Assembly: GCA_003154555.1 (NCBI GenBank)
Contig: PMDT01000383.1
Span: 1-10,801, forward strand
Source of the DNA: Spirochaetaceae bacterium
Lineage (GTDB): Bacteria > Spirochaetota > Spirochaetia > SZUA-6 > Fen-1364
Length of the DNA stretch: 10,801 bases
Reading direction: 5' to 3'
Made by a program: the position numbers and the translations under genes. The notes beneath the pieces were generated by a model. That model was not told where the DNA came from. It was given only the letters and a program-made list of their open reading frames with translations, and searched no databases. This document shows, one piece after another, positions 1,114 through 10,801 of this stretch; position 1 is the first letter of the stretch; each line of letters starts with the position of its first letter.

Positions 1114-1785
1114 TCAGAGGCGTTTGCCGAACACTATTGCGACGTGCCCTTCTACGCCCTGCCAGAATGTGCCCGGCTTTTGTGCGAGCACGTCATACCC
1201 AAGCTTGGCATAGAACGGAAGAGCCTTGCTGTTGCGATTCGAGGTGATGAGATGAACCCCGGCGACACCGGCATCGCGGAGCGTCGCTTCAAAGGTGCGG
1301 ATGAGCAGCTCACCGATGCCACGCCGCTGGCAGGTCGGCAGCACATTGATGTGCAGGTGCGCCGGGTAGCCGTCAAAAAAAGCCTCCGCGGAATCCGAAT
1401 AGGCGCGGGCCCAGGCAAGAACGTGTCGAAATGACTCGGGATGTCTCCACCAGCTCACGAGGAAACACCGCACCGCTATGCGCCAGTACATGCGCCGTCG
1501 AAATGTCTTTTCGTAGCGGCGCGAGTCCCCTGTGCCGATGATATAGCCCGCCACCGTGCCGTCCGCGTCGTCAACGGCAACAAAGCAGAACGAAGGCTGA
1601 AAGCGAAGGTAGCCTTCCGTGTTGACAAGGGCAAAAAGCCGCTTGTCCTCGAAAAGCCCTTTTCCCGCCAGCTCTTCTCCGAGAAAGCCCGTCGAATGAA
1701 GGATCCCCCGCACAGCGCTGCGATCCCCGCGACCGTACGGGCGGCAGTGGATCCCGCATGCGGCCGGGACCTGCGCCAGCTTCAC
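1114..1785 (-). CDS. GNAT-family N-acetyltransferase
   Basis: This 223-residue protein is a GNAT fold enzyme that should transfer an acetyl group from acetyl-CoA to an unknown amine. The acetyl-CoA-binding motif A is visible as a beta strand (HLHINVLP, about 143-150) followed by QRRGIG (153-158), then the helix and the C-terminal motif B region (NSKALPFYAKLGY, 185-197). The N-terminal part (RPYGRGDRSAV, then VAGYIIGTGD at 78-87) resembles the stand-alone GNATs related to the C-terminal domain of O-GlcNAcase; this is from memory of the family and less certain. The middle (about 95-135) is rich in Trp and Arg. The start is GTG at 1785, overlapping the MFS stop as GTGA, with a purine-rich GGGGAAGG just upstream. 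It is the last gene of the three-gene leftward operon and may modify the imported or oxidised substrate. The target is unknown. Confidence 0.9.
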   Translation of the reverse strand: MKLAQVPAACGIHCRPYGRGDRSAVRGILHSTGFLGEELAGKGLFEDKRLFALVNTEGYLRFQPSFCFVAVDDADGTVAGYIIGTGDSRRYEKTFRRRMYWRIAVRCFLVSWWRHPESFRHVLAWARAYSDSAEAFFDGYPAHLHINVLPTCQRRGIGELLIRTFEATLRDAGVAGVHLITSNRNSKALPFYAKLGYDVLAQKPGTFWQGVEGHVAIVFGKRL

Positions 1786-3092
1786 GGCGCCTTCCCCTGG
1801 GCAGCGGCGGCCGCGCGCATCTCCCGTGCCACGCCGCGCAAGTGCTCGTGGTGACGGGCCATGTCTGCCGTGAAGGTGAAGATGACGGCAACGATCAGCG
1901 CGGCGCAGACGACCCAGAATCCCGAACAGATGGCAAGCGCCGCCGTGAGACCGAAGAAGCCCGAGAGGGAACCGGCGACGAATCTGCCGAAGCCCTGGCC
2001 AAGTGAGTCAGTGAGGTTGAAGATGGAGAAGACGGCGCCGCGGTTTTCCGGGGAGTTCACATCGAGGATCATCGCCGTGATGTTGGGTCCCGTCATGCCG
2101 GCAAGCGCCGTGGCAAGGAAGCCCATGAGGGCGAGCTCCGGGACGCTCGCCGGGACCACGAGCACGATGCAGATGACCATCGCGGCGCCCAGGAGCGTCG
2201 TGGCCGCACAGAATGCCGGCAGCACGCGGGGCGCCCGACGGAATATCCGCCCGCCGACCTGGCCCCCGACGATGTTGCCGACAAGCATGCCAACGCCAAA
2301 GACCAGGAACACGGTGGTTGCATTCGCGACGGAGAGGCCTTTCACGCGGTTGAGGTATTCGTTGATGAAGAAGAAGCTCCCCCAGGGAAGGCTGCCCGCG
2401 ACTCCCTGAAGGAAGAGGTAGAGATTCGTCCGTGACTTGAAGATGCCCGCGTAGTCCGCCAGGTGGAGCCGCTTCGGATAGACGAGCCCGGCGGCAACAA
2501 GATCGCGCGTCGCCTCTTCAGACGCTGCCTTTTTCGGTTCCGGCGTCAGGAGCCAGTACACCAGCACGAGAAGATAGTTCGGTGCCGATGCGACGATGAA
2601 GGGGGTGCGCCAGTCGCCATTCCCGCCGACGTAACCTCCGACCAGGGTGCCCGCAATGGTGCCGACGCTCACGGCGACTGTGACAATGGCGACGGCCGAC
2701 GGCCGTTCCCTTTCATCGAACATGTCGCCGACGATTGAATACAGAAGAGGGTACGCGGCGCCCAGGCCCACGCCTGACAGGATGCGCAGCGCGAAAAAGA
2801 CCGGATAGTTCGGCGCGAATGCCGTGAGCGTGCAGGGCAGCTCGCCGATAAGAATAGCCGCGATGAAGAGCACCTTGCGGGCCGCCTTGTCGGCGAAGTA
2901 TCCCCAGAACAGGGACACCACGGCACCAATAATCGTGAAGAGCCCCATCATGCTCCCGATTGCCGCGTCCCCGATGCCGAACTCTTTCTCGATCATGACA
3001 AGGGTGGGGCTCATGACATTCGCATCCATGTTCAGCACGATCATCATCAGGGAAATCACGACGAGGCTGAAATAGCGCTGGTTCCTGTTCAT
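1782..3092 (-). CDS. Major facilitator superfamily (MFS) transporter
   Basis: A 436-residue integral membrane protein with about 12 hydrophobic segments in two halves, joined by a charged cytoplasmic loop near residues 187-220. The MFS motif A is seen after the second helix as GYFADKAARK (64-73). The pattern RILSGVGLGAAYPLLYSIVGD (about 103-123) fits MFS helix 4, and the second half ends in a cytoplasmic His/Arg-rich tail. It should move a small solute across the inner membrane, probably by proton-driven symport or as a facilitator; the closest general resemblance is to organic-acid/Spinster-like MFS members, but the substrate is not readable. The ATG at 3092 overlaps the oxidoreductase stop (ATGA), and AAGGAG lies 7 nt upstream inside the preceding gene, which supports this start and translational coupling. 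The 3' end overlaps the GNAT start by 4 bp. Confidence 0.95.
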   Translation of the reverse strand: MNRNQRYFSLVVISLMMIVLNMDANVMSPTLVMIEKEFGIGDAAIGSMMGLFTIIGAVVSLFWGYFADKAARKVLFIAAILIGELPCTLTAFAPNYPVFFALRILSGVGLGAAYPLLYSIVGDMFDERERPSAVAIVTVAVSVGTIAGTLVGGYVGGNGDWRTPFIVASAPNYLLVLVYWLLTPEPKKAASEEATRDLVAAGLVYPKRLHLADYAGIFKSRTNLYLFLQGVAGSLPWGSFFFINEYLNRVKGLSVANATTVFLVFGVGMLVGNIVGGQVGGRIFRRAPRVLPAFCAATTLLGAAMVICIVLVVPASVPELALMGFLATALAGMTGPNITAMILDVNSPENRGAVFSIFNLTDSLGQGFGRFVAGSLSGFFGLTAALAICSGFWVVCAALIVAVIFTFTADMARHHEHLRGVAREMRAAAAAQGKAP

Positions 3093-4453
3093 ACGGCGGC
3101 TCCTTTTTCATCCAGCGTGATGACGCAGCCTTCGATGCGCGCTCGCTCCGCCGCAAAGCAGAGCAAATGGCTGCGCAGTGCGGCCCGGGCCGCGCCTGGC
3201 TCATCAGGGGGTGCCGCGCCTTTCAGAAATGCCTCCACGTGGGACGTGAAGTCTTCCATCAGGCCTTCATCCCCTCCCCCATGGCCGCGAAAAGGACTGC
3301 GGTTGCGCCAGAGGACTTTTCGGCCCCCCCGACGATGGTCGAAAAGCACGAGCTCTTCCCCCGCGAAGCCGAATGTCCCTTCCAGGGACCCCGCGGAGCC
3401 GTCGATCCTGATCTGCCGTCCTTCCTGATAGGAATGGCCGTGGAGAATAAAGGCAGCAACGACTCCATTGTCGAACTGCACATTCACGACCTGCCGGTCC
3501 ACGACGTCATTGTCGCATCGGTAGACGCAGCGGCCGTAGGGGCCATCCTGCAGCGCCGCCATTCGCGCGGCCCGGGAATGCCGGTCAGAGATCGTCACTG
3601 ACGGCCATTCCTTCCAGTCCCAGAGCCGGTCAAAAGGCTCCGTCGAGAAAAAGGACGCAAGAGGTCGGATAAGGAGGCTTTTGGAAAAGGCGAGATTCTT
3701 CAGCATCGGTGTGCCATTGAGATAGAGCCGCGGCGCGTACCACGGGCACTGCCGCTCGTGGGGGCATCCGTCGGTGCAGCGGGCAGGCGCGCCGGCGGGA
3801 GCATGATCCGCCCGGAAATACTCCTGCGACCCAAAGGACTGCACAACCCGCGGCCGTGCGCCTGCGAGCCAGCAGAGAATGTCCATGTCGTGACAGCTTT
3901 TTGCAAGAATCATCGGGCTCGCGCCGGCCGCGTTCCGCCAGTTGCCCCTCACGTACGAGTGCGCGTAATGCCAATAGCTCACGTTTTCAGAATGCCGGAT
4001 GATTGCGATCTCCCCCAGCAGGCCGGAATCCAGTGCGCTTTTCACGGCGGCAAAGAAGCGCGTATAGCGCAGAACATGGCAGATGCGAAGGATCACCCCT
4101 GCTTCTTCGGATGCCGCCACGAGGCTCATGCAGTCCTCTTCGGTGACAGCCATCGGTTTTTCCAGGAGGACATTATAGCCGGCCGCAATCGCGGCACGGG
4201 CCGGGGCGGCATGGTCCCGATCCTGCGTCGCCACGATGCAGGCATCGGCGATCCTCCCCCTGTCGATCAGCTCCCGCCAGTCCTTGAAAAGCATCCCTTC
4301 TGACAGCCGATGCCGGGCGGCGCATTCCACCCGGCGTCCTTCCTGCGGCTCGGCAACCGCCACAAGCTCCGCCTCATCAGGGTTGTCCGCGATCCACCGG
4401 GCGTACGCATCCTTGCCTCGTGTCCCGGCGCCGATCAACACGTATCGGACCAT
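3089..4453 (-). CDS. Gfo/Idh/MocA-family NAD(P)-dependent oxidoreductase
   Basis: This 454-residue protein belongs to the glucose-fructose oxidoreductase/inositol dehydrogenase family, which oxidises or reduces sugars, cyclitols and related hydroxy compounds with a nicotinamide cofactor. The Rossmann motif is VLIGAGTRG (5-13). The catalytic-lysine signature EKPMA is at 98-102, and the active-site helix reads KSCHDMDIL (185-193). An insertion at 226-236 carries C226-x3-C230-x5-C236 (CTDGCPHERQC), a cysteine cluster I associate with one subgroup of these enzymes; whether it binds metal is unknown. The chain is longer than the usual 330-390 residues, mostly because of the insertion at about 210-320. 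It is the first gene of the leftward operon. ATG at 4453 begins directly on the Rossmann strand. No Shine-Dalgarno sequence is seen, which fits a leaderless message. Confidence 0.95.
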   Translation of the reverse strand: MVRYVLIGAGTRGKDAYARWIADNPDEAELVAVAEPQEGRRVECAARHRLSEGMLFKDWRELIDRGRIADACIVATQDRDHAAPARAAIAAGYNVLLEKPMAVTEEDCMSLVAASEEAGVILRICHVLRYTRFFAAVKSALDSGLLGEIAIIRHSENVSYWHYAHSYVRGNWRNAAGASPMILAKSCHDMDILCWLAGARPRVVQSFGSQEYFRADHAPAGAPARCTDGCPHERQCPWYAPRLYLNGTPMLKNLAFSKSLLIRPLASFFSTEPFDRLWDWKEWPSVTISDRHSRAARMAALQDGPYGRCVYRCDNDVVDRQVVNVQFDNGVVAAFILHGHSYQEGRQIRIDGSAGSLEGTFGFAGEELVLFDHRRGGRKVLWRNRSPFRGHGGGDEGLMEDFTSHVEAFLKGAAPPDEPGAARAALRSHLLCFAAERARIEGCVITLDEKGAAV

Positions 4454-4459
4454 GCCGTC

Positions 4460-4488
4460 AGGCTATCGTCGCTCCCGGAAGCCGTCAA
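4460..4488 (-). promoter_or_regulatory. Candidate promoter of the oxidoreductase operon, possibly leaderless
   Basis: On the minus strand, TTGACG (4488-4483) is a 5/6 match to a -35 box. It is followed after exactly 17 nt by TAGCCT (4465-4460), a weaker -10 match. Initiation 6-8 nt downstream would fall at 4454-4452, on the ATG at 4453. Together with the missing Shine-Dalgarno sequence, this suggests a leaderless transcript. Confidence 0.45.
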
Positions 4489-4495
4489 GCGACGA
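4466..4495. repeat. 8-bp inverted repeat overlapping the divergent control region
   Basis: TCGTCGCT (4466-4473) and AGCGACGA (4488-4495) are perfect reverse complements with a 14-nt centre. The repeat covers the spacer and -35 box of the proposed leftward promoter, a typical place for a repressor operator. The separate heptamer GCCGTCA also occurs twice nearby (4454-4460, 4481-4487). No regulator gene lies next to it, so the binding protein is unknown. Confidence 0.45.
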
Positions 4496-4602
4496 GCCGG
4501 CGCTGCAACGAAGGCCTCACGGCATCTGAGCGCCGGATCCCCGGCACTTGTGTCTCCATCCGTTCGACGATACCCTCAGCGTCACACGAGAGGAGACAGC
4601 CA

Positions 4603-5829
4603 GTGAAACGCATGTCATCGCGCGAGCGGATGATGCACGCCCTGTCCTGCGATCCAGTCGACTACACGCCATGCTGTTTCATGCTGCTGCATGGCTTTGA
4701 CGAATGGTTCCCGGGGGAACAGAACCTGGTCGCTGCCCAGGCGGACCTGGGCCTGGATCCGCTCGTCGACATTCCCTCCTGGTCGGTGAGCCGCCCAGGG
4801 GATCCGCTCGATCTTCGCGGCTACCAGCTCGACTACCCCGGAAAGGTCAATGTGACCCTTCGCGGCATGCCGGTGCACGCGCACCGGGATGTCACCCTCA
4901 GGGAGTGGCGCGAACTCGGCCCCGGGGCGCGGTATCCGGTCCTCCATCGTGAATACCTGACCCCTGCAGGACCACTGACGGTGTCTGCCAACCAGACCGA
5001 GGACTGGCCTTACGGGGACCATCTCCTGTTTGTCGATGATTTCATCATTGCCCGGGCCACGAAGACCCTCATCACGAAGCCATCGGATCTGAAAGCGCTT
5101 GCGTATCTCCTGCAGCCGCCGGATGCCGAAACGATCGCGCATTTTCGCTCCTCGTCGGAATCAAATCGGAAACTTGCACAGGAAATGGAGCTGCTGCGCG
5201 TCTATCAGTGGGGCGTGCTCGCAGACATGGCGTCGTGGCTTTGCGGCCTGCAGGAGCTCATTTTCCTCACTGCCGATCAGCCGGCTCTTGTCGAGGAGCT
5301 GTTCCACATGATCGCGGACTGGAACCTCGCACGGATGAAGGTCGTTCTGAACGAAGGAATCGACCTGTGGGTGCGCCGCGGCTGGTACGAGGGCTCTGAC
5401 TTCTGGTCACCCGCCTTGTATCGAAAGTTCATATTTCCTCACTTGAAAAAGGAAGTGGAAACGGCGCATGCGCGCGGCGTCAGGTTCGGCTACATCATGA
5501 CGGCGGGTGCAATGCCCCTGCTCGACATGATCCTTGAGGCGCGCGTCGATGTCCTGATCGGCCTGGATCCCGTGCAGGGAGGCTACGACCTTCGTGAAAC
5601 GAAAGCGAAGGCGAAAGGACGCATGTGCCTCTGGGGCGGCGTCAACGGCTCCCTGACGGTGGAGGCTGGGACACCAGAGCTGATCCGCGAGACGGTGAAG
5701 AGCACGATGGATATCCTGGCGCCCGGCAACGGGTTCATTCTTTCACCGGTGGACGGCATCTATGATGCCTCGGACCGCGTTCGAAGCAATGTGCGTCATT
5801 TCATAGACGCCTGGAAGGAGTGCCGATAG
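4603..5829 (+). CDS. Uroporphyrinogen decarboxylase (URO-D) superfamily protein
   Basis: A 408-residue protein with the URO-D/methyltransferase barrel pattern: the opening SSRERMMHALSCDPVDYTP (5-23), a helical middle, LDPVQGGYDL (321-330), WGGVNG (344-349) and a FILSPVDGIYD-type C-terminus (378-388). Relatives include HemE and the corrinoid methyltransferases MtaA/MtbA/CmuA. At the strand where those methyltransferases carry a zinc-binding His-x-Cys, this protein reads RFGYIMTAG (294-302), so that site is missing and methyltransferase chemistry of that kind is doubtful. The gene stands alone from heme genes, which argues against a HemE role. The open frame extends upstream to 4420, but GTG at 4603 is chosen: AGAGGAGA (4589-4596) ends 6-7 nt before it, while ATG 4612 is too far and the upstream ATG lies inside the divergent promoter. 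It is followed with no gap by the transporter gene. The substrate is unknown. Confidence 0.9.
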   Translation: MKRMSSRERMMHALSCDPVDYTPCCFMLLHGFDEWFPGEQNLVAAQADLGLDPLVDIPSWSVSRPGDPLDLRGYQLDYPGKVNVTLRGMPVHAHRDVTLREWRELGPGARYPVLHREYLTPAGPLTVSANQTEDWPYGDHLLFVDDFIIARATKTLITKPSDLKALAYLLQPPDAETIAHFRSSSESNRKLAQEMELLRVYQWGVLADMASWLCGLQELIFLTADQPALVEELFHMIADWNLARMKVVLNEGIDLWVRRGWYEGSDFWSPALYRKFIFPHLKKEVETAHARGVRFGYIMTAGAMPLLDMILEARVDVLIGLDPVQGGYDLRETKAKAKGRMCLWGGVNGSLTVEAGTPELIRETVKSTMDILAPGNGFILSPVDGIYDASDRVRSNVRHFIDAWKECR

Positions 5830-7302
5830 ATGAGCGACGACGCCAAGCGGAGCGGAGCGGCGATCCAGATCAGCGCGCGCGCTTTCATCACCACGATTGC
5901 CATCATTCTTGCCCTCATGATCGGGTCCGGCATCCTCACCTACGTGATCCCGTCAGGCAGCTACGGGCATACGGTGGAGGCGGGCGTCGACAAGGTCATT
6001 CCCGGCACCTTTGCCTATGGCGCACGGCCAAATTACCCTGCATGGCGCTGGCTGACGGCCCCCGTGGAGGTCCTGTGGTCTCCCGGCAATATCCAGGTCA
6101 TCACGATCATCATCCTGCTGGTCCTGATCGGGGGCTCGTTCACCGTCCTGGACAAGGGCGGCATCCTGAAGGTCGCGCTGTCGATGATCGTCTCCCGGTT
6201 CAGGAAGAACAAGTACGTTCTCATGGCGGCGATCATATTCTTCTTCATGATTGCCTCCTCCGTGCTGGGCATCTACGAGGAGGCGGCGCCCCTGGTCGTT
6301 TTCATCGTGCCGCTCGCCCTCTACCTGGGCTGGGACAGCCTCACCGGGCTCGGCATGAGCCTGCTCTCACTGGGCTTCGGCTTCGCAGCCGCCACGATGG
6401 ATCCCTTCATGGTCACCATCGCACAATCGCTGTCCGGGCTGCCGCTCTACTCGGGCCTCTGGCTGCGGGCGATCTTCTTTGTCACCATGTTCGCCCTGGT
6501 TTTCCTCTTTGTCCGGCGCCATGCCCGCAAGGTGGAACGCGATCCCGCGCGCTCGATCGTGCACGAGGAGGACCTCCGTCTGCGCGCATCCATCGACGTG
6601 AGCGGAGCGGTGGCCAGCGACGAGGTCGCTTCCAGACCGCGCATGCGCGCCGCGGTCAGATGGCTCGGCCTGTGGTTTCTCGCGGCGATCCTTTTCATCA
6701 TTGCCGCAACGCGCATCAAGGCCATTTCTTCCTTTGCATTCCCGATCATGGGCCTTTTCTTCGTGATTGCCTGCAACGGCGCCGCGCTGGTTGCCGGGGA
6801 AAAAGGGAAAGCACTTGGAAAATGCTTCCTGATCGGCATGAGGTCGATACTCCCGGCCATCGTCATGATCCTCATGGCCATGAGCGTGAAGCTCATCATC
6901 ACGAAAGGGGGCATCCTCGACACGATTCTCTATGCGGCTGCGGGCAAAATAAGCGGGGTCGGCCCGTATGCTGCCGTGGCCTTCGTCTACCTGATCACAC
7001 TGGTCTTCGAGTTTTTCATACCATCTGCGTCGGCCAAGGCCTTCCTCATCATCCCGATCCTCGCGCCGCTTGCAGATCTGGTCGGCCTGACGCGGCAGAC
7101 CGTCGTGTTCGCATTCGACAACGGCGACGGTTTCGCCAATATCCTTTATCCGACGAACCCGTTCCTCATGATCTGCCTGGGGCTCACCATCGTGAGCTAC
7201 CCGAAGTGGGTGCGCTGGACCCTGCCTCTCCAGGCAATAACCGTCCTCATCTGCCTCGGCTTCATGGCCCTTGCCGTGGCGATAAAGTTCGGACCCTTCT
7301 AG
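5830..7302 (+). CDS. YfcC-family (DcuC/ArsB-like) membrane transporter
   Basis: A 490-residue polytopic inner-membrane protein with about 11-13 hydrophobic segments. It matches the YfcC family of carboxylate, amino-acid or peptide-type secondary carriers. Seen: the first helix ending in YVIPSGSYG (38-46); VIPGTFAYG (56-64); VLIGGSFTVLDKGGIL (98-113); the paired acids YEEAAP (149-154); DPFMVTIAQ and SGLPLYSG (191-199, 202-209); and FFIPSASAKA in the C-terminal half. A charged loop at about 229-272 divides the two halves. ATG follows the URO-D stop codon directly, and AAGGAG (5815-5820) lies 9 nt upstream, so both are made from one message. The pair suggests uptake of the compound processed by the URO-D-like protein, but the substrate cannot be read. 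The stop is only 9 bp from the stop of the convergent Crp/Fnr gene. Confidence 0.9.
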   Translation: MSDDAKRSGAAIQISARAFITTIAIILALMIGSGILTYVIPSGSYGHTVEAGVDKVIPGTFAYGARPNYPAWRWLTAPVEVLWSPGNIQVITIIILLVLIGGSFTVLDKGGILKVALSMIVSRFRKNKYVLMAAIIFFFMIASSVLGIYEEAAPLVVFIVPLALYLGWDSLTGLGMSLLSLGFGFAAATMDPFMVTIAQSLSGLPLYSGLWLRAIFFVTMFALVFLFVRRHARKVERDPARSIVHEEDLRLRASIDVSGAVASDEVASRPRMRAAVRWLGLWFLAAILFIIAATRIKAISSFAFPIMGLFFVIACNGAALVAGEKGKALGKCFLIGMRSILPAIVMILMAMSVKLIITKGGILDTILYAAAGKISGVGPYAAVAFVYLITLVFEFFIPSASAKAFLIIPILAPLADLVGLTRQTVVFAFDNGDGFANILYPTNPFLMICLGLTIVSYPKWVRWTLPLQAITVLICLGFMALAVAIKFGPF

Positions 7303-7311
7303 GTCGCGTTC

Positions 7312-8025
7312 TCACACAGCAGTGACGTCGGGAAGGAGTCGACGGAACTCCTTCCTGACGACATCGTAGCATTCGCAGACCCGCTTCTCCAGGCCTGGTC
7401 GATCCAGCACGGTGATGTGGCCCCTGACATAGTGAATCAGGCCTGCGCTCTGCAGCCGCCCCGCGGCCTCGGTGACGCCTTCACGGCGCACGCCCAGCAT
7501 GTTGGCAATAAGCTCCTGCGTCATGACAAGCTCATTCGACTGCAGACGGTCGAGGCTGAGAAGCAGCCACCGGCAGAGCTGCTGATCCACGGAATGGTGC
7601 CGATTGCAGACCGCCGTCTGCGCCATCTGGGAGAGCAGCGCCAGGGTGTAGCGCAGCAGCAGATGCTGCAAAGCAGCGGCGCGGTTGAACTCCTGCTTGA
7701 GCAACTGCCCGTGGAGGCGGTAGGCATGGCCCGCGCTTTGCACGACGGCCCGGTTCAGCATCGTATCCCCACCCATGAAGAGCGCAATGCCCACGATTCC
7801 TTCGTTGCCCACCACTGCGATCTCGGCGGACGCGCCGTCCTCCAATTCGTAGAGCAGGGAAACGATGGCAGTCGTCGGGAAGTAGACGTGATTGAGCTGA
7901 TCCCCTGACTCATACAGGGCCTTCCCCAACGGCAGCTCGACCCGCTCCAGGTGGGGACGCAGGCGCTGGGTCGCGAGCTCAGGAAGGACAGCGAGAAGAT
8001 GGTTCTTTCGGCTGTCGGGCATCAT
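7312..8025 (-). CDS. Crp/Fnr-family transcriptional regulator
   Basis: A 237-residue DNA-binding regulator with an N-terminal cyclic-nucleotide-binding-like beta barrel (about 25-115), a long dimer helix (about 118-150) and a C-terminal winged helix (167-192: MTQELIANMLGVRREGVTEAAGRL as separate halves, then GLIHYVRGHITVLD). The barrel reads NEGIVGIALFMGG and NRAVVQS in place of the phosphate-binding cassette (GELAL..RSA), so cAMP binding is unlikely. There is no N-terminal cysteine cluster, so it is not a classical Fe-S Fnr. The signal is unknown. The frame extends to 8079, but GAGGAG (8033-8038) is 7 nt from ATG 8025, followed by a second ATG at 8022, and the homologous family begins near MPxSRxNHLL, so 8025 is preferred. 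It diverges from the kai operon and may control it and itself. Confidence 0.95.
   Translation of the reverse strand: MMPDSRKNHLLAVLPELATQRLRPHLERVELPLGKALYESGDQLNHVYFPTTAIVSLLYELEDGASAEIAVVGNEGIVGIALFMGGDTMLNRAVVQSAGHAYRLHGQLLKQEFNRAAALQHLLLRYTLALLSQMAQTAVCNRHHSVDQQLCRWLLLSLDRLQSNELVMTQELIANMLGVRREGVTEAAGRLQSAGLIHYVRGHITVLDRPGLEKRVCECYDVVRKEFRRLLPDVTAV
7326..7360 (+). terminator. Long hairpin between convergent genes, candidate terminator of the transporter mRNA
   Basis: The segment 7326-7339 pairs with 7347-7360 in a 14-bp stem with a 7-nt loop (7340-7346). The inner 9 bp (GGAAGGAGT/ACTCCTTCC) are perfect. Position 7330/7356 is a G-U pair only in plus-strand RNA and an A-C mismatch in minus RNA, so the structure favours the transporter transcript. 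It starts 23 nt after the transporter stop and lies inside the last codons of the Crp/Fnr gene. No U-run follows, so it may act as an RNA 3'-end stabiliser or a Rho-dependent end rather than a classical terminator. Confidence 0.5.
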
Positions 8026-8042
8026 CGGAGGGCTCCTCGTCT

Positions 8043-8059
8043 TCGACCATGCAGGTCGA
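8043..8059 (-). other. Small hairpin in the regulator leader
   Basis: TCGACC (8043-8048) and GGTCGA (8054-8059) form a perfect 6-bp stem with a 5-nt loop. It lies 4 nt upstream of the GAGGAG ribosome binding site of the Crp/Fnr gene. It could affect translation or mRNA stability; a role is not shown. Confidence 0.35.
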
Positions 8060-8077
8060 TGGCCAATCATTGCCGGC

Positions 8078-8097
8078 ATGTGGCTACCACCTCACAT
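8078..8097. promoter_or_regulatory. ATGTG-N10-CACAT palindrome, possible operator
   Basis: ATGTG (8078-8082) and CACAT (8093-8097) form a 20-bp palindrome with a 10-nt centre. The arms resemble Crp-type half-sites (TGTGA/TCACA), but the spacing is 2 nt longer than the Escherichia coli consensus. It overlaps the expected start point of the regulator promoter, a position suited to autorepression by the encoded Crp/Fnr protein. Confidence 0.4.
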
Positions 8098-8101
8098 AGA
8101 A

Positions 8102-8130
8102 ATAATACATCGGGCATGCAGGGCTTGGAA
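8102..8130 (-). promoter_or_regulatory. Candidate promoter of the Crp/Fnr gene
   Basis: On the minus strand, TATTAT (8107-8102) is a 5/6 match to the -10 box and lies in one of the few AT-rich patches of the window. TTCCAA (8130-8125) is a weak -35 match at the ideal 17-nt spacing. The expected start near 8095 leaves a leader of about 70 nt. Confidence 0.45.
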
Positions 8131-8151
8131 GTCGCGTGATCCATGAAAAAT

Positions 8152-8190
8152 CGTGTAGGAAATCTCACACGGGCGTGTAGAAAAAACACG
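8152..8190. promoter_or_regulatory. Cluster of CGTGT/ACACG half-sites upstream of kaiC
   Basis: CGTGTAG occurs at 8152-8158 and 8174-8180, 22 bp apart. Inverted ACACG arms occur at 8167-8171 and 8186-8190. They build two overlapping-style palindromes with centres of 10 and 7 nt. Read on the minus strand, the first also gives TGTGA-N6-CTACA, close to a Crp-type site. Their centres fall near -80 and -59 from the expected kai start, typical of an activator that contacts RNA polymerase. The adjacent Crp/Fnr protein is an obvious but unproven candidate. Confidence 0.45.
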
Positions 8191-8206
8191 ACAGCACCCT
8201 CCCCGC

Positions 8207-8234
8207 TTGACTTCACAACCACATGAAGTAGGAT
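8207..8234 (+). promoter_or_regulatory. Candidate sigma70 promoter of the kai operon
   Basis: TTGACT (8207-8212, 5/6 match) and TAGGAT (8229-8234, 4/6 match) are spaced by 16 nt. Transcription would begin near 8241, leaving a 20-nt leader with GAGGT (8250-8254) 6 nt from the ATG of kaiC. This is the best promoter match in the window. Confidence 0.55.
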
Positions 8235-8260
8235 AGCTCTGGCAGAAACGAGGTGGAGCG

Positions 8261-9961
8261 ATGACGAAAGTGCAATCCCCGCGAGTGAAGCTTCGCGGGA
8301 TACGGAAATGTCCCACGGGCATTCGCGGGCTGGACGAGATCACTGAAGGCGGGCTTCCGCGGGGGCGGGCAACCCTGGTGTGCGGGGGGCCGGGGTGCGG
8401 CAAAACTCTCCTGGCCACGGAGTTCATCGCGCGCGGGATCCTCGACTTCGGCGAGCCCGGCGTCTTTGTATCGTTCGAAGAGCCCATCGGGGATCTGACG
8501 GCGAACGTCGCCAGCCTGGGTATCGACCTGAGCGACCTCCGCAAACGCGGGCTTCTTGCAATGGACGAAGTGCGGGTCGAGAGGAGCGAGATCGAAGAGT
8601 CCGGAGAATATGACCTGGACGGACTTTTTATTCGTCTCGGGGGGCTTATCGACGAGGTCAAAGCGAAGCGCGTGGCGCTGGACACCATCGACGGTCTGTT
8701 CGACGGCCTGCCGAACGAGGCAATCCTCCGGGCAGAGCTTCGCAGGTTGTTCCGCTGGCTGAAGGCAAAAGGTGTCACGTCCATCGTCACCGCGGAGCAG
8801 GGCGACGGCGCGCTCACGCGTCACGGCCTGGAGGAATACGTGAGCGACTGCGTCATTCGGCTCGACCATCGGGTGAAGAGCCAGATCGCCACGCGGCGGC
8901 TCCGCGTCGTGAAGTACCGGGGCAGCCAGCACCGCACGAACGAGTATCCGACAATGATCAACAGCAAGGGCCTGAGCGTGCTGCCCATCACCTCCCTCGG
9001 CCTGAGTTATCCCGTCAGCAAGGCGCGCATCTCCACGGGCATCCGGAAGCTGGATTCCATGCTTGGCGGCAAGGGATACTACCTCGGGAGCAGCATCCTC
9101 GTGTCGGGGAGCGCGGGGACGGGCAAGACGAGCCTCGCCGCCGCGTTCGCCGACAGCGCGTGTCGCGCCGGCAGAAAGTGCCTTTACGTCTCCTTCGAGG
9201 AATCCCCGGAGCAGCTTCTTCGCAACATGGCGTCCATCGGCTTCGATCTCAAGCACTGGATCCCACGGGCACTGCTGCAGTTCAGAAGCCAGCGCGTGAC
9301 CCTGTACGGTCTGGAAAACCACCTCGCAAACCTTCACCAGTGGGTGGAGGAGTTTTCTCCTTCCACGGTGATCATGGATCCCATCACGAGCCTTGGCGGC
9401 GAGGGGCTGATTGACGAAGTGGAAGCGATGTTGACGCGCACCATCGATTATCTGAAAGGCCGCGGAATCACCGCGTTTTTCACCACCCTGTCCAAGAGCG
9501 CGCAGGCCGAAGGGAGCGAGGTGAGCATTTCCTCCCTGATCGATACCTGGCTGCATCTGCGGACATTCGAATCCGGGGGGGAGCGGAGCCGTGGGCTCGT
9601 CGTGATCAAGAGCCGGGGGATGGCGCATTCCAACCAGGTGCGGGAGTTCCTCCTCACGGACAAGGGCGTAACGCTGCGCGACCCTTACGTGGGGTCGGGG
9701 CAGGTTCTCATGGGCTCCTCCCGCGAGGTGCAGGAAGCACGGGACAGGGACGGGGCTGCTGAGGCGAAGCAGGGCTTCGAAAAGAACCAGGGTGAGATGG
9801 AGGGTGCTCGCCAGAGACTGGAGGCAGAAATAGCTGCCATGCGTCTCAGGCTGAAGAACCTGGGGGGAGAAATGAAAGCCGCCGATGACAGGGAACGACT
9901 CAGAGCGACCCGGCTGAGCCAGGAGCGCAGGCAGTTGCGGATTTCCAGGAAAGCGGACTGA
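8261..9961 (+). CDS. kaiC: KaiC-type double-domain ATPase/autokinase with extended C-terminal tail
   Basis: A 566-residue protein with two RecA-like KaiC domains. CI (about 15-245) has Walker A GGPGCGKT (42-49) and catalytic glutamates FEE (72-74). CII (about 253-475) has GSAGTGKT (283-290), FEE (312-314) and Walker B VIMDP (370-374). The phosphorylation loop aligns as EVSISSLIDT, giving Ser424-Ser425 where cyanobacterial KaiC has Ser431-Thr432. Cyanobacterial KaiC is about 519 residues; here about 90 extra residues (476-566) form a charged, Glu/Arg/Lys-rich helical tail, likely a coiled coil. A Ser-Ser site plus such a tail is known from the KaiA-independent Rhodobacter sphaeroides KaiC, whose tail drives dodecamer formation. 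It should hydrolyse ATP and autophosphorylate as a hexamer or dodecamer, with KaiB as partner. ATG 8261 has GAGGT 6 nt upstream. The kaiB gene follows after 6 nt. Confidence 0.97.
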   Translation: MTKVQSPRVKLRGIRKCPTGIRGLDEITEGGLPRGRATLVCGGPGCGKTLLATEFIARGILDFGEPGVFVSFEEPIGDLTANVASLGIDLSDLRKRGLLAMDEVRVERSEIEESGEYDLDGLFIRLGGLIDEVKAKRVALDTIDGLFDGLPNEAILRAELRRLFRWLKAKGVTSIVTAEQGDGALTRHGLEEYVSDCVIRLDHRVKSQIATRRLRVVKYRGSQHRTNEYPTMINSKGLSVLPITSLGLSYPVSKARISTGIRKLDSMLGGKGYYLGSSILVSGSAGTGKTSLAAAFADSACRAGRKCLYVSFEESPEQLLRNMASIGFDLKHWIPRALLQFRSQRVTLYGLENHLANLHQWVEEFSPSTVIMDPITSLGGEGLIDEVEAMLTRTIDYLKGRGITAFFTTLSKSAQAEGSEVSISSLIDTWLHLRTFESGGERSRGLVVIKSRGMAHSNQVREFLLTDKGVTLRDPYVGSGQVLMGSSREVQEARDRDGAAEAKQGFEKNQGEMEGARQRLEAEIAAMRLRLKNLGGEMKAADDRERLRATRLSQERRQLRISRKAD

Positions 9962-9967
9962 AAGCTT

Positions 9968-10306
9968 ATGGCGAGCGCAGGAACAAAGGGAAAAAGCAAA
10001 AAGGCAGCGAAACCGCGGGGGGCCTCGAAAAAAAGCGCATGGGACCTTCGACTCTACATTGCCGGTCGGACACCCCGGGCCGAGAGGGCGCTGAAAAACC
10101 TCGAGCGCATCTGCGCGGAGCACCTCGCCGGCCAGTACCGCGTGGTGGTGATAGACCTCCTGAAAATACCGCAGCTGGCCAAAGGAGATCAGATCGTCGC
10201 CGTTCCCACCCTCGTGCGGAACCTTCCCACGCCAATGCGCCGGATCATCGGGGACCTTTCAAACACCGAGCGGGTCCTCATCGGCCTCGATATCCGGGCC
10301 CGATGA
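9968..10306 (+). CDS. kaiB: KaiB-domain clock protein, first copy
   Basis: A 112-residue protein. Residues 25-111 are a thioredoxin-like KaiB domain: LRLYIAGRTPRAERAL (27-42), VVVIDLLKIPQLA (59-71), VPTLVRNLPTPMRRIIGDLS (79-98, read in parts) and VLIGLDI (103-109). These fit the cyanobacterial consensus closely, including the conserved PTL, LP.P and GDLS stretches. KaiB binds the CI ring of KaiC and in cyanobacteria changes fold to do so. The first 23 residues are an added basic tail with ten Lys/Arg, absent from ordinary KaiB of about 100 residues. ATG 9968 follows the kaiC stop by 6 nt. The best ribosome binding match, AGGAAAG (9947-9953), is rather far, so translation may depend on coupling to kaiC. 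It overlaps the next kaiB by 4 bp. Confidence 0.95.
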   Translation: MASAGTKGKSKKAAKPRGASKKSAWDLRLYIAGRTPRAERALKNLERICAEHLAGQYRVVVIDLLKIPQLAKGDQIVAVPTLVRNLPTPMRRIIGDLSNTERVLIGLDIRAR

Positions 10307-10665
10307 GCGCGAAAAAAGAGGGTGCGCCGGCAGGCAGGAAAGTGTCCAGGACTCACCTCCGCGGGACTGCCACTCGCGGAAAGCGCCGCCCCCGCTACGT
10401 CCTGAAGCTGTACGTCGCAGGGGTGAACCGAAAATCCACGGAGGCTATCAGGGCGATCACGGAGTTGTGCGATGAATACCTGAAGGGAAGGTACCAGCTT
10501 GCGATCATCGATATTTACCAGCAACCCACCCTGGCGCAGGGAGAGCAGATCATCGCGGCACCCACGCTCATCAGGAAGTTGCCATTGCCATTGAGAATGC
10601 TGGTCGGAGACATGACGGAGAGGGACAGAATCCTCGTGGGGCTCGACCTGAGGCCTCCGTCGTGA
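10303..10665 (+). CDS. kaiB: KaiB-domain clock protein, second copy
   Basis: A 120-residue KaiB homologue that differs clearly from its neighbour. The domain spans about 31-117: YVLKLYVAGVNRKS (32-45), AIIDIYQQPTLAQ (67-79), APTLIRKLPLPLRMLVGDMT (86-105, read in parts) and ILVGLDL (110-116). It departs from the consensus at NTPNS (here VNRKS) and RRIIGDLS (here RMLVGDMT). Like the first copy it has a basic N-terminal tail, about 30 residues with many Lys/Arg. ATG 10303 overlaps the previous stop as ATGA, and no good Shine-Dalgarno sequence is seen, so reinitiation is likely. A longer frame exists upstream to 10039, but it lies in another frame over the first kaiB and is discarded. The two copies could form mixed complexes or work at different KaiC states; this is inference. 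Confidence 0.95.
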   Translation: MSAKKEGAPAGRKVSRTHLRGTATRGKRRPRYVLKLYVAGVNRKSTEAIRAITELCDEYLKGRYQLAIIDIYQQPTLAQGEQIIAAPTLIRKLPLPLRMLVGDMTERDRILVGLDLRPPS

Positions 10666-10801
10666 GATCCCCCCCTCCCCGCCCGGGGCTCCCACGCCAG
10701 GTTGCGGAGCTCACCGCGCGCCTGCGCGAGGCGGAGGAGGCGCTCGCAGCGATTCGGGAGGGGGACGTCGATGCTGTCGTCGTCTCGGGAAGGCGCGGCA
10801 C
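10662..10801 (+). CDS. Probable PAS-type sensor kinase, N-terminal fragment
   Basis: Only 46 codons plus 2 nt are inside the window. GTG at 10662 overlaps the second kaiB stop as GTGA, and TGAGG (10649-10653) lies 8 nt upstream. After a Pro/Arg-rich opening, the chain has a helical segment VAELTARLREAEEALAAI followed by REGDVDAVVVSG. That helix plus the GDVDAVVV strand is how many PAS-domain sensor histidine kinases begin, and such kinases are common beside kaiC-kaiB-kaiB genes outside cyanobacteria. If so, it would be the output or input kinase of the Kai system. No kinase motif is visible here, so the call rests on a short pattern and on context. Confidence 0.55.
   Translation, partial: MRSPPPRPGLPRQVAELTARLREAEEALAAIREGDVDAVVVSGRRG

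Follow-up and report, generated by a model that had tools for sequence, protein, structure and literature searches.

We analysed a stretch of 10,801 nucleotides (the window), which is the entire contig C173 (PMDT01000383.1) in the draft genome (3.47 Mb, completeness 69%) of a Spirochaetaceae bacterium. The window ends in an operon of clock type, in which a kaiC gene is followed by two different kaiB genes and by the start of an output gene:

8261..9961, + strand: kaiC, 566 amino acids, with CI and CII RecA-like domains (Pfam PF06745 in two stretches)
9968..10306, + strand: kaiB-a, the first KaiB, 112 amino acids (Pfam KaiB, 90.8 bits)
10303..10665, + strand: kaiB-b, the second KaiB, 120 amino acids (Pfam KaiB, 80.2 bits)
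10662..10801, + strand: output gene, its initial 46 codons, bearing most of a kai-output N-terminal module of ~53 residues

The gene calls place all four genes on the + strand, as the initial annotation had read them, and reproduce its 6-nt gap between the kaiC stop and the kaiB-a start and its two 4-nt overlaps, ATGA at 10303-10306 (kaiB-a/kaiB-b) and GTGA at 10662-10665 (kaiB-b/output gene). Its naming of one kaiC and two kaiB genes agrees with Pfam (whole-protein KaiC E 3e-107; KaiB E 5e-26 and 9e-23), with both KaiB scores lying above the Pfam cut-off and below the stricter NCBIfam cut-offs. The two KaiBs really are different proteins, since they are 40% identical across 90 residues. A sister locus in the same genus (L023), whose source we infer from matching operon coordinates to be genome G001, has the same operon with a KaiC 85% identical to that of the window. 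Relative to this sister, the ratio of nonsynonymous to synonymous substitution (dN/dS) is 0.14 for kaiC, 0.16 for kaiB-a and 0.45 for kaiB-b, and all three genes are under purifying selection. Because the gene order recurs across many phyla and the dN/dS values are this low, the arrangement is not a product of chance. The G+C content of the operon resembles that of the remainder of the contig, and the locus is typical of a layout that is widespread and not peculiar to this organism.

We then assigned the KaiC to a class. The window KaiC scores 688 bits against NCBIfam PRK09302.1 (cut-off 408), and its best relative in the PDB is R. (Rhodobacter) sphaeroides KaiC (8dba, 581 bits), to which it aligns through query residue 547; KaiC chains beyond the R. 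sphaeroides constructs reach at most 344 bits. By alignment, the catalytic Glu pairs E73/E74 (CI) and E313/E314 (CII) are intact and the phosphosites are S424/S425, with Ser-Ser found in 70 of 74 aligned KaiCs. Two Ser sites replacing the Ser/Thr pair characterize the KaiC2 type (PMC10076222, PMC5520375; these and most papers below are cited for the passages available to us). The C-terminal extension of ~50 residues that also marks this type is present, as the tail runs 65 residues past the R. sphaeroides truncation point. KaiA (PF07688), which defines canonical KaiABC systems, was found in none of 61 genomes including the window's own and the sister's, with a positive Synechococcus elongatus control and no separate search for chimeric KaiA3, reported from Rhodospirillum rubrum, where it lies beside a kaiBC pair (PMC10931921). 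The Ser-Ser sites, the tail, the nearest structure and the KaiA search together support the KaiA-independent type proposed in the initial annotation, whose wider proposal of a timer or stress switch with output through the sensor kinase is supported in part. In R. sphaeroides, a KaiC of this type needs no KaiA for its autophosphorylation, and its ADP-bound CI is bound by KaiB (PMC10076222). With an R. sphaeroides-like KaiC and no KaiA in the 61 genomes, the locus falls into a known kind of system, a KaiBC switch that may act as a timer or respond to the energy state. The layout in which a histidine kinase or GGDEF/EAL gene comes after kaiC-kaiB was described in 2011 (PMC3164672).

A genome scan with the window KaiC returned 78 loci, a sample biased towards relatives of the query. 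Adding the window and eight further regions, all from members of its class, gave 87 scanned sources. In 76 of them kaiC and kaiB shared a strand: kaiC was followed by two kaiB genes in 55 and by one in 19, and kaiB lay upstream in two. The other 11 were not counted (nine without a KaiB match, several of them fragments or cut by a contig end, and two with KaiB and no KaiC). By record title, the two-KaiB loci span eleven named phyla, one of them archaeal, and the public annotation of Pararhizobium qamdonense already lists kaiC - kaiB - 'KaiB family protein' - 'response regulator'. Within the window's class, KaiB scored above cut-off in nine of 118 genomes, including both members of the genus; G002, the other listed genome of the same family, had no KaiB match. 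Beyond the sister locus, the closest KaiCs come from Omnitrophota, Planctomycetota and WOR-3, and the supported set of nine that holds them also includes a Chromatiaceae genome; this origin in other phyla suggests horizontal transfer. Two class members (L111, L112) have a KaiB-like gene with no kaiC within the fetched stretch.

The sequences indicate that the two KaiBs are old paralogues kept in a fixed order, at 55 of the 76 sampled loci. In a tree of 135 KaiB domains, built from few columns and with many open forks, all 55 first KaiBs fall within one supported set, whose 63 rows comprise these, seven single KaiBs and R. sphaeroides KaiB, and no second-position KaiB. On this tree, the first and second labels alone require one change; adding the single and the reference rows gives 5 and 4. 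A more careful tree, built from 30 KaiBs of each position, separates the first from the second with support 99/97. A recent tandem duplication of kaiB is ruled out by the separation of first and second KaiBs on the sampled tree. The profile of its own group scored better for 55/55 first and 54/55 second KaiBs, a descriptive result in that 53 of each had built the profiles (alignments A1 and A2 cover 53 of the 55 two-KaiB loci, with L114 and L116 left out). By the same profiles, 17 of 19 single KaiBs are first-like. The window's kaiB-a lies on the first side of the KaiB tree with R. sphaeroides KaiB, which is also its best PDB match (8fwj). Among the positions that differ between the groups are position 37, Ile/Val in first and Leu in second KaiBs, and position 43, mostly Leu and mostly Tyr, respectively. 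The initial annotation was right that the two kaiB genes differ, and it lacked the non-equivalence of the second.

Both groups retain the three prolines (P58, P65 and P67 of R. sphaeroides KaiB) that have been tied to slow fold switching in that protein (PMC11551320): 55/55 first and 54/55 second KaiBs have all three, the sole second KaiB without the full triple being that of L036, and both window KaiBs have the complete set. Both window KaiBs also have Lys/Arg-rich N-terminal tails of ~24-31 residues (9968-10040 and 10303-10390), which are present in the sister locus and less conserved than the core. In an acidobacterium the two KaiBs are fused into one protein of 245 residues (L027:7664-8401). 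Phage records searched for relatives of kaiB-b yielded none.

SasA is the KaiC-binding output kinase of cyanobacteria, in which a KaiB-like domain reads KaiC and a histidine kinase provides the output. This output role is also described in PMC6769508. The second-KaiB profile (53 sequences) matched structures of the SasA N-terminal domain at E 2.1e-7 (6x61, 33.9 bits) and 2.6e-7 (1t4y, 33.6 bits), whereas the first-KaiB profile reached E 0.025 (17.7 bits) and 0.54 (13.5 bits). We considered whether a broader profile could produce this difference. Thioredoxin chains score mostly within ~2 bits of each other with both profiles, compared with gains of 16-20 bits for SasA and 6 bits for chain 7q3k, which argues against profile breadth as the sole cause of the likeness. 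Single-sequence scans against the SasA model PRK09303 also counter this artefact, with 39/53 second and 6/53 first KaiBs matching at E<=1e-5; the window's kaiB-b matches at E 1.8e-6. By sequence, then, kaiB-b looks like the SasA input domain. Two further chains prefer the second-KaiB profile over the first, Lpp1115 (4kun; 95.9 vs 83.0 bits) and 8ubh (84.8 vs 77.4 bits), whereas R. sphaeroides KaiB prefers the first (133.2 vs 118.3 bits) and the remaining listed KaiB chains score about equally. We take 8ubh to be KaiB-TV4 and Lpp1115 (4kun) to be the fold-switched Legionella KaiB. Two KaiBs resting in the fold-switched state, one from Legionella and KaiB-TV4, are described in PMC10808063. AlphaFold2 (AF2) predicts kaiB-b in the fold-switched order strand-helix-strand-helix-strand-strand-helix, with a predicted local distance difference test score (pLDDT) of 94.7.

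The fourth gene had been called a probable PAS kinase. The 46 codons in the window hold no such domain, and the support for the call comes from orthology: these codons are 78% identical to the start of the sister protein L023:8404-9729, which has PAS, HisKA_3 and HATPase_c domains and is followed by a regulator with receiver and LuxR-type domains (Response_reg and GerE). What the codons do hold is most of an N-terminal module of ~53 residues (consensus EAEETLxAIRxGEVDAxVVxGxxGxQVxTL; window match E 2.7e-14 at 10692-10799), present in 66/66 downstream output proteins from 49 two-KaiB and 17 single-KaiB loci. The effectors that follow it vary among histidine kinase, GGDEF-EAL and sigma-54 activator. 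Alignment A3 holds 48 two-KaiB outputs (left out were the window with its 46 codons, the cut L011 and L048, the fused L030, and L052, which is included in the 66-protein module set), A4 covers 17 of 19 single-KaiB loci (L115 and L118 left out), and A6 holds 49 of the 66 modules.

Because the module profile was built from the same 66 proteins, checks on whole genomes weigh more. Across the 118 class genomes, strong matches (E <= 2e-8) occurred at six places in five genomes, each adjoining a kaiB; two weak ones (E 5e-4 and 7e-4) lay in genomes without a KaiB match, and four of the nine class genomes with KaiB above cut-off lacked the module. In 12 further genomes (2.5-8.3 Mb), reached through loci whose titles were not marked as metagenome-assembled genomes, the module appeared 13 times at E <= 1e-5, 12 of them within 150 bp of a kaiB and the 13th in the divergent neighbour of a Methanoculleus operon. 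Seven of these 12 loci are themselves alignment rows, so the point of this check is the absence of the module elsewhere in each genome. The module is thus nearly confined to kai operons in the 118 and 12 genomes searched. The R. sphaeroides kinase annotated as HWE family has it as well, at 56 bits. In Pfam, the best stretch of no listed match covers the module (eight module-bearing proteins), and in NCBIfam none does among the best 25 matches per protein (five proteins). Neither two paralogous KaiBs in one operon nor such an output module was found described in the passages covered from the open-access literature, figures not among them.

Several loci vary this theme. The module-bearing Methanoculleus neighbour (L066:2056-5415, minus strand) means that one operon may drive two outputs, and L017 also has a second module match. 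A planctomycete encodes a fusion of 597 residues, KaiB - module - GGDEF - EAL (L030:4265-6058), and a protein search returned four KaiB-module-GGDEF-EAL proteins (P0003-P0006), one with an added receiver domain. These fusions are mixed evidence on which KaiB pairs with the module, because the fused KaiB is second-like in L030 (111.0 bits with the second profile vs 97.4 with the first) and undecided in P0006 (104.2 vs 105.1). Nor can the module depend on KaiB-b alone, since single-KaiB operons bear it too.

Given the gene content, order, paralogy and sequence class established here, we consider it probable that the locus encodes, as a class, a KaiA-independent KaiBC switch with kinase output. 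It would be of the KaiC2 type and feed a two-component output, probably working as a damped timer or as a switch that follows the ATP/ADP state. By analogy with the biochemistry of the R. sphaeroides system, KaiC would autophosphorylate S424/S425 without KaiA, through an exposed A-loop next to the C-terminal tail, and move between phosphorylation states according to ATP/ADP. KaiB-a would be a slow fold-switcher that binds the post-hydrolysis (ADP) state of CI and drives KaiC dephosphorylation. Systems of this type are further marked by a KaiC ATPase that KaiB stimulates. KaiB-b, going by its SasA-likeness, the gene order and the fusions, might read the state of KaiC and hand the signal to the PAS kinase through its N-terminal module, and the kinase would pass it to the LuxR-type response regulator.

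A bolder extension of this scheme, which we offer tentatively and judge well short of an even chance, is a 'split SasA': a permanently fold-switched KaiB-b may read KaiC in trans, together with a kai-specific docking module of interchangeable effectors. KaiB-a would then keep the time and KaiB-b carry the message, and the route would be a general, so far undescribed, way out for KaiBC timers beyond the cyanobacteria. The R. sphaeroides system, studied structurally, has a single KaiB, and the main text of its paper contains 0 occurrences of 'histidine kinase' (PMC10076222). The SasA-like second KaiB lineage and the module common to 66 outputs point to a testable answer to how KaiBC systems outside cyanobacteria may pass their state to gene expression. 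If it is true, a fold-switching and a fold-locked KaiB share one operon, a natural pair for studying the role of fold switching in timing.

A number of observations weigh against the overall reading of the locus as a KaiBC switch with kinase output. The locus is known here from its sequence, and no timing, binding or phosphorylation measurement on a two-KaiB system was found in the open-access literature covered. The contig ends at 10801, which cuts the output gene to the 46 codons described. At the looser threshold of E<=0.01, the SasA model matches 51/53 second and 43/53 first KaiBs, a small contrast. AF2 is reported to lean to the fold-switched state from mixed alignments (PMC10808063), and alignment A1 is more varied than A2; for kaiB-a it gave a ground-state-like tail (helix-helix-strand) at a poor pLDDT of 69.5. 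The residues R68/D83/R84, reported to favour the fold-switched state (PMC10808063), are absent from the window's kaiB-b, which has L68, V83 and G84. Given the AF2 bias and the missing residue switch, the fold predicted for kaiB-b is a hint only. In the KaiC2 type the C-terminal extension forms a 12-helix coiled coil in a dodecamer; the heptad signal of the window's KaiC tail is modest (45/1000 shuffles as high), and the test does not single out even the known coil of R. sphaeroides (521/1000). With the window's genome 69% and the sister's 91% complete, a missing KaiA is weak evidence by itself. Finally, a HATPase occurs in the next gene of 42/48 two-KaiB vs 7/17 single-KaiB loci (Fisher p 4e-4), but an independent-pairs count (57 rows), which takes relatedness into account, gave only three supported pairs and no significance; we do not rely on an association of the second KaiB with kinase output. 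Sorting outputs by regular expression left 21/69 unclear, and Pfam tallies were used except in the independent-pairs count.

Four alternatives, not mutually exclusive, were weighed. The first is that the locus keeps no time and is a KaiC-based sensor of stress or energy that signals by way of the kinase, a role proposed for KaiBC of Legionella; we regard this as a serious possibility, somewhat short of an even chance. The fold-switched Legionella KaiB that was crystallised has been implicated in stress and not in rhythms (PMC10808063), and Lpp1115 favours the second-KaiB profile by the 95.9 vs 83.0 bits given above, whereas the intact phosphosites and catalytic Glu pairs and the grouping of kaiB-a with R. 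sphaeroides KaiB in the tree speak against this alternative.

The second alternative holds that both KaiBs are ordinary fold-switchers acting jointly or redundantly on KaiC, with no output role for the second. The near-universal proline triple in both groups fits this view, as do the matches of all 53/53 scanned second KaiBs to KaiB models and the KaiB-KaiB fusion in the acidobacterium. We nonetheless find it unlikely in view of the deep split and fixed order, the group-specific positions 37 and 43, the SasA-likeness of the second KaiB and its faster change (dN/dS 0.45 vs 0.16).

Less convincing still is a third alternative, in which KaiB-b acts as a competitor, keeps KaiC in the KaiB-bound state and resets or shortens the timer while carrying no output. 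If KaiB-b is stable in the binding-competent fold, as the AF2 prediction has it, one would expect it to occupy CI as KaiB or SasA does. Its gene, however, adjoins the output gene, and KaiB is found fused to the module and GGDEF-EAL in L030 and P0003-P0006, an argument weakened in turn by the fused KaiB being second-like in L030 only. The fourth alternative, that the operon was acquired recently and has lost its function, or was binned in error, might be suggested by the lack of a KaiB match in G002 and the origin of the nearest non-sister KaiCs in other phyla. It is very improbable, given that another, separately assembled genome of this genus has the same operon beside the same Crp gene (KaiC 85% identical), the purifying selection, and a G+C content like that of the rest of the contig.

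Upstream of the operon lie two further features:

8207..8234, + strand: predicted sigma-70-type promoter, TTGACT, 16 nt, TAGGAT (consensus match only)
7312..8079, - strand: divergent Crp/Fnr-type regulator (Pfam HTH_Crp_2 and cNMP_binding), outside the operon core

The predicted promoter is the sole promoter-like site within 7900-8400 (shuffle mean 0.1), and both hexamers are unchanged in L023. It lies in the intergenic stretch 8080-8260 between kaiC and the divergent Crp-type gene. The same stretch contains CGTGT..ACACG inverted repeats, seen by eye at ~8152-8171 and 8175-8191, the first of them flagged as a stem; they are partly retained in L023 and may be candidate regulator sites. The Crp/Fnr-type gene stands at the same position in L023 (86% identical) and had no match in the other 77 of the 78 loci of the kaiC scan, some of them short. 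Its product is a possible regulator of the operon. Further upstream, 1782-7302 encodes an MFS transporter, a Gfo/Idh oxidoreductase, a relative of URO-D-like methyltransferases and a DcuC-family carrier, which may form a unit for uptake and breakdown that has nothing to do with the kai operon. A protein of 308 residues at 3-926, open at the contig start, has no Pfam match; it resembles an outer-membrane porin.

Lastly, we compared the locus with described systems. The 'orange group' of kaiC-kaiB loci (PMC3164672) resembles it in combining an SS or ST KaiC with a histidine kinase or GGDEF/EAL protein directly downstream, and differs in that the text covered, figures aside, describes neither a second KaiB nor a shared module. 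In Rhodopseudomonas palustris (PMC4794148) and Bradyrhizobium (BRADO1478-1481; PMC3899966), kaiC, kaiB and a PAS histidine kinase are adjacent as they are here, with a single kaiB described; R. palustris is reported to show KaiC-dependent proto-circadian fitness (PMC4794148). Legionella Lpp1115 and 8ubh, like nearly all second KaiBs, favour the second-KaiB profile, whereas the passages available do not describe the Legionella KaiB and KaiB-TV4 as sharing an operon with a first-type KaiB partner (PMC10808063). The likeness to SasA lies in kaiB-b and its KaiB-like domain. In SasA this domain is fused to the kinase; here kaiB-b is a gene of its own, sharing 4 nt with the output gene, and the kinase, as seen in the sister orthologue, has the module and PAS in place of the KaiB-like part. 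The KaiBC hourglass clock of R. sphaeroides KD131 is alike in its two-Ser KaiC with a tail, in a kaiB downstream of kaiC, in a downstream kinase with the N-terminal module (56 bits) and in working without KaiA (PMC10076222), none having been found here either. Its order is kaiC - kaiB - HWE kinase with a single KaiB of the first type, whereas the present operon has two KaiBs and, in the sister genome, a HisKA_3 kinase.

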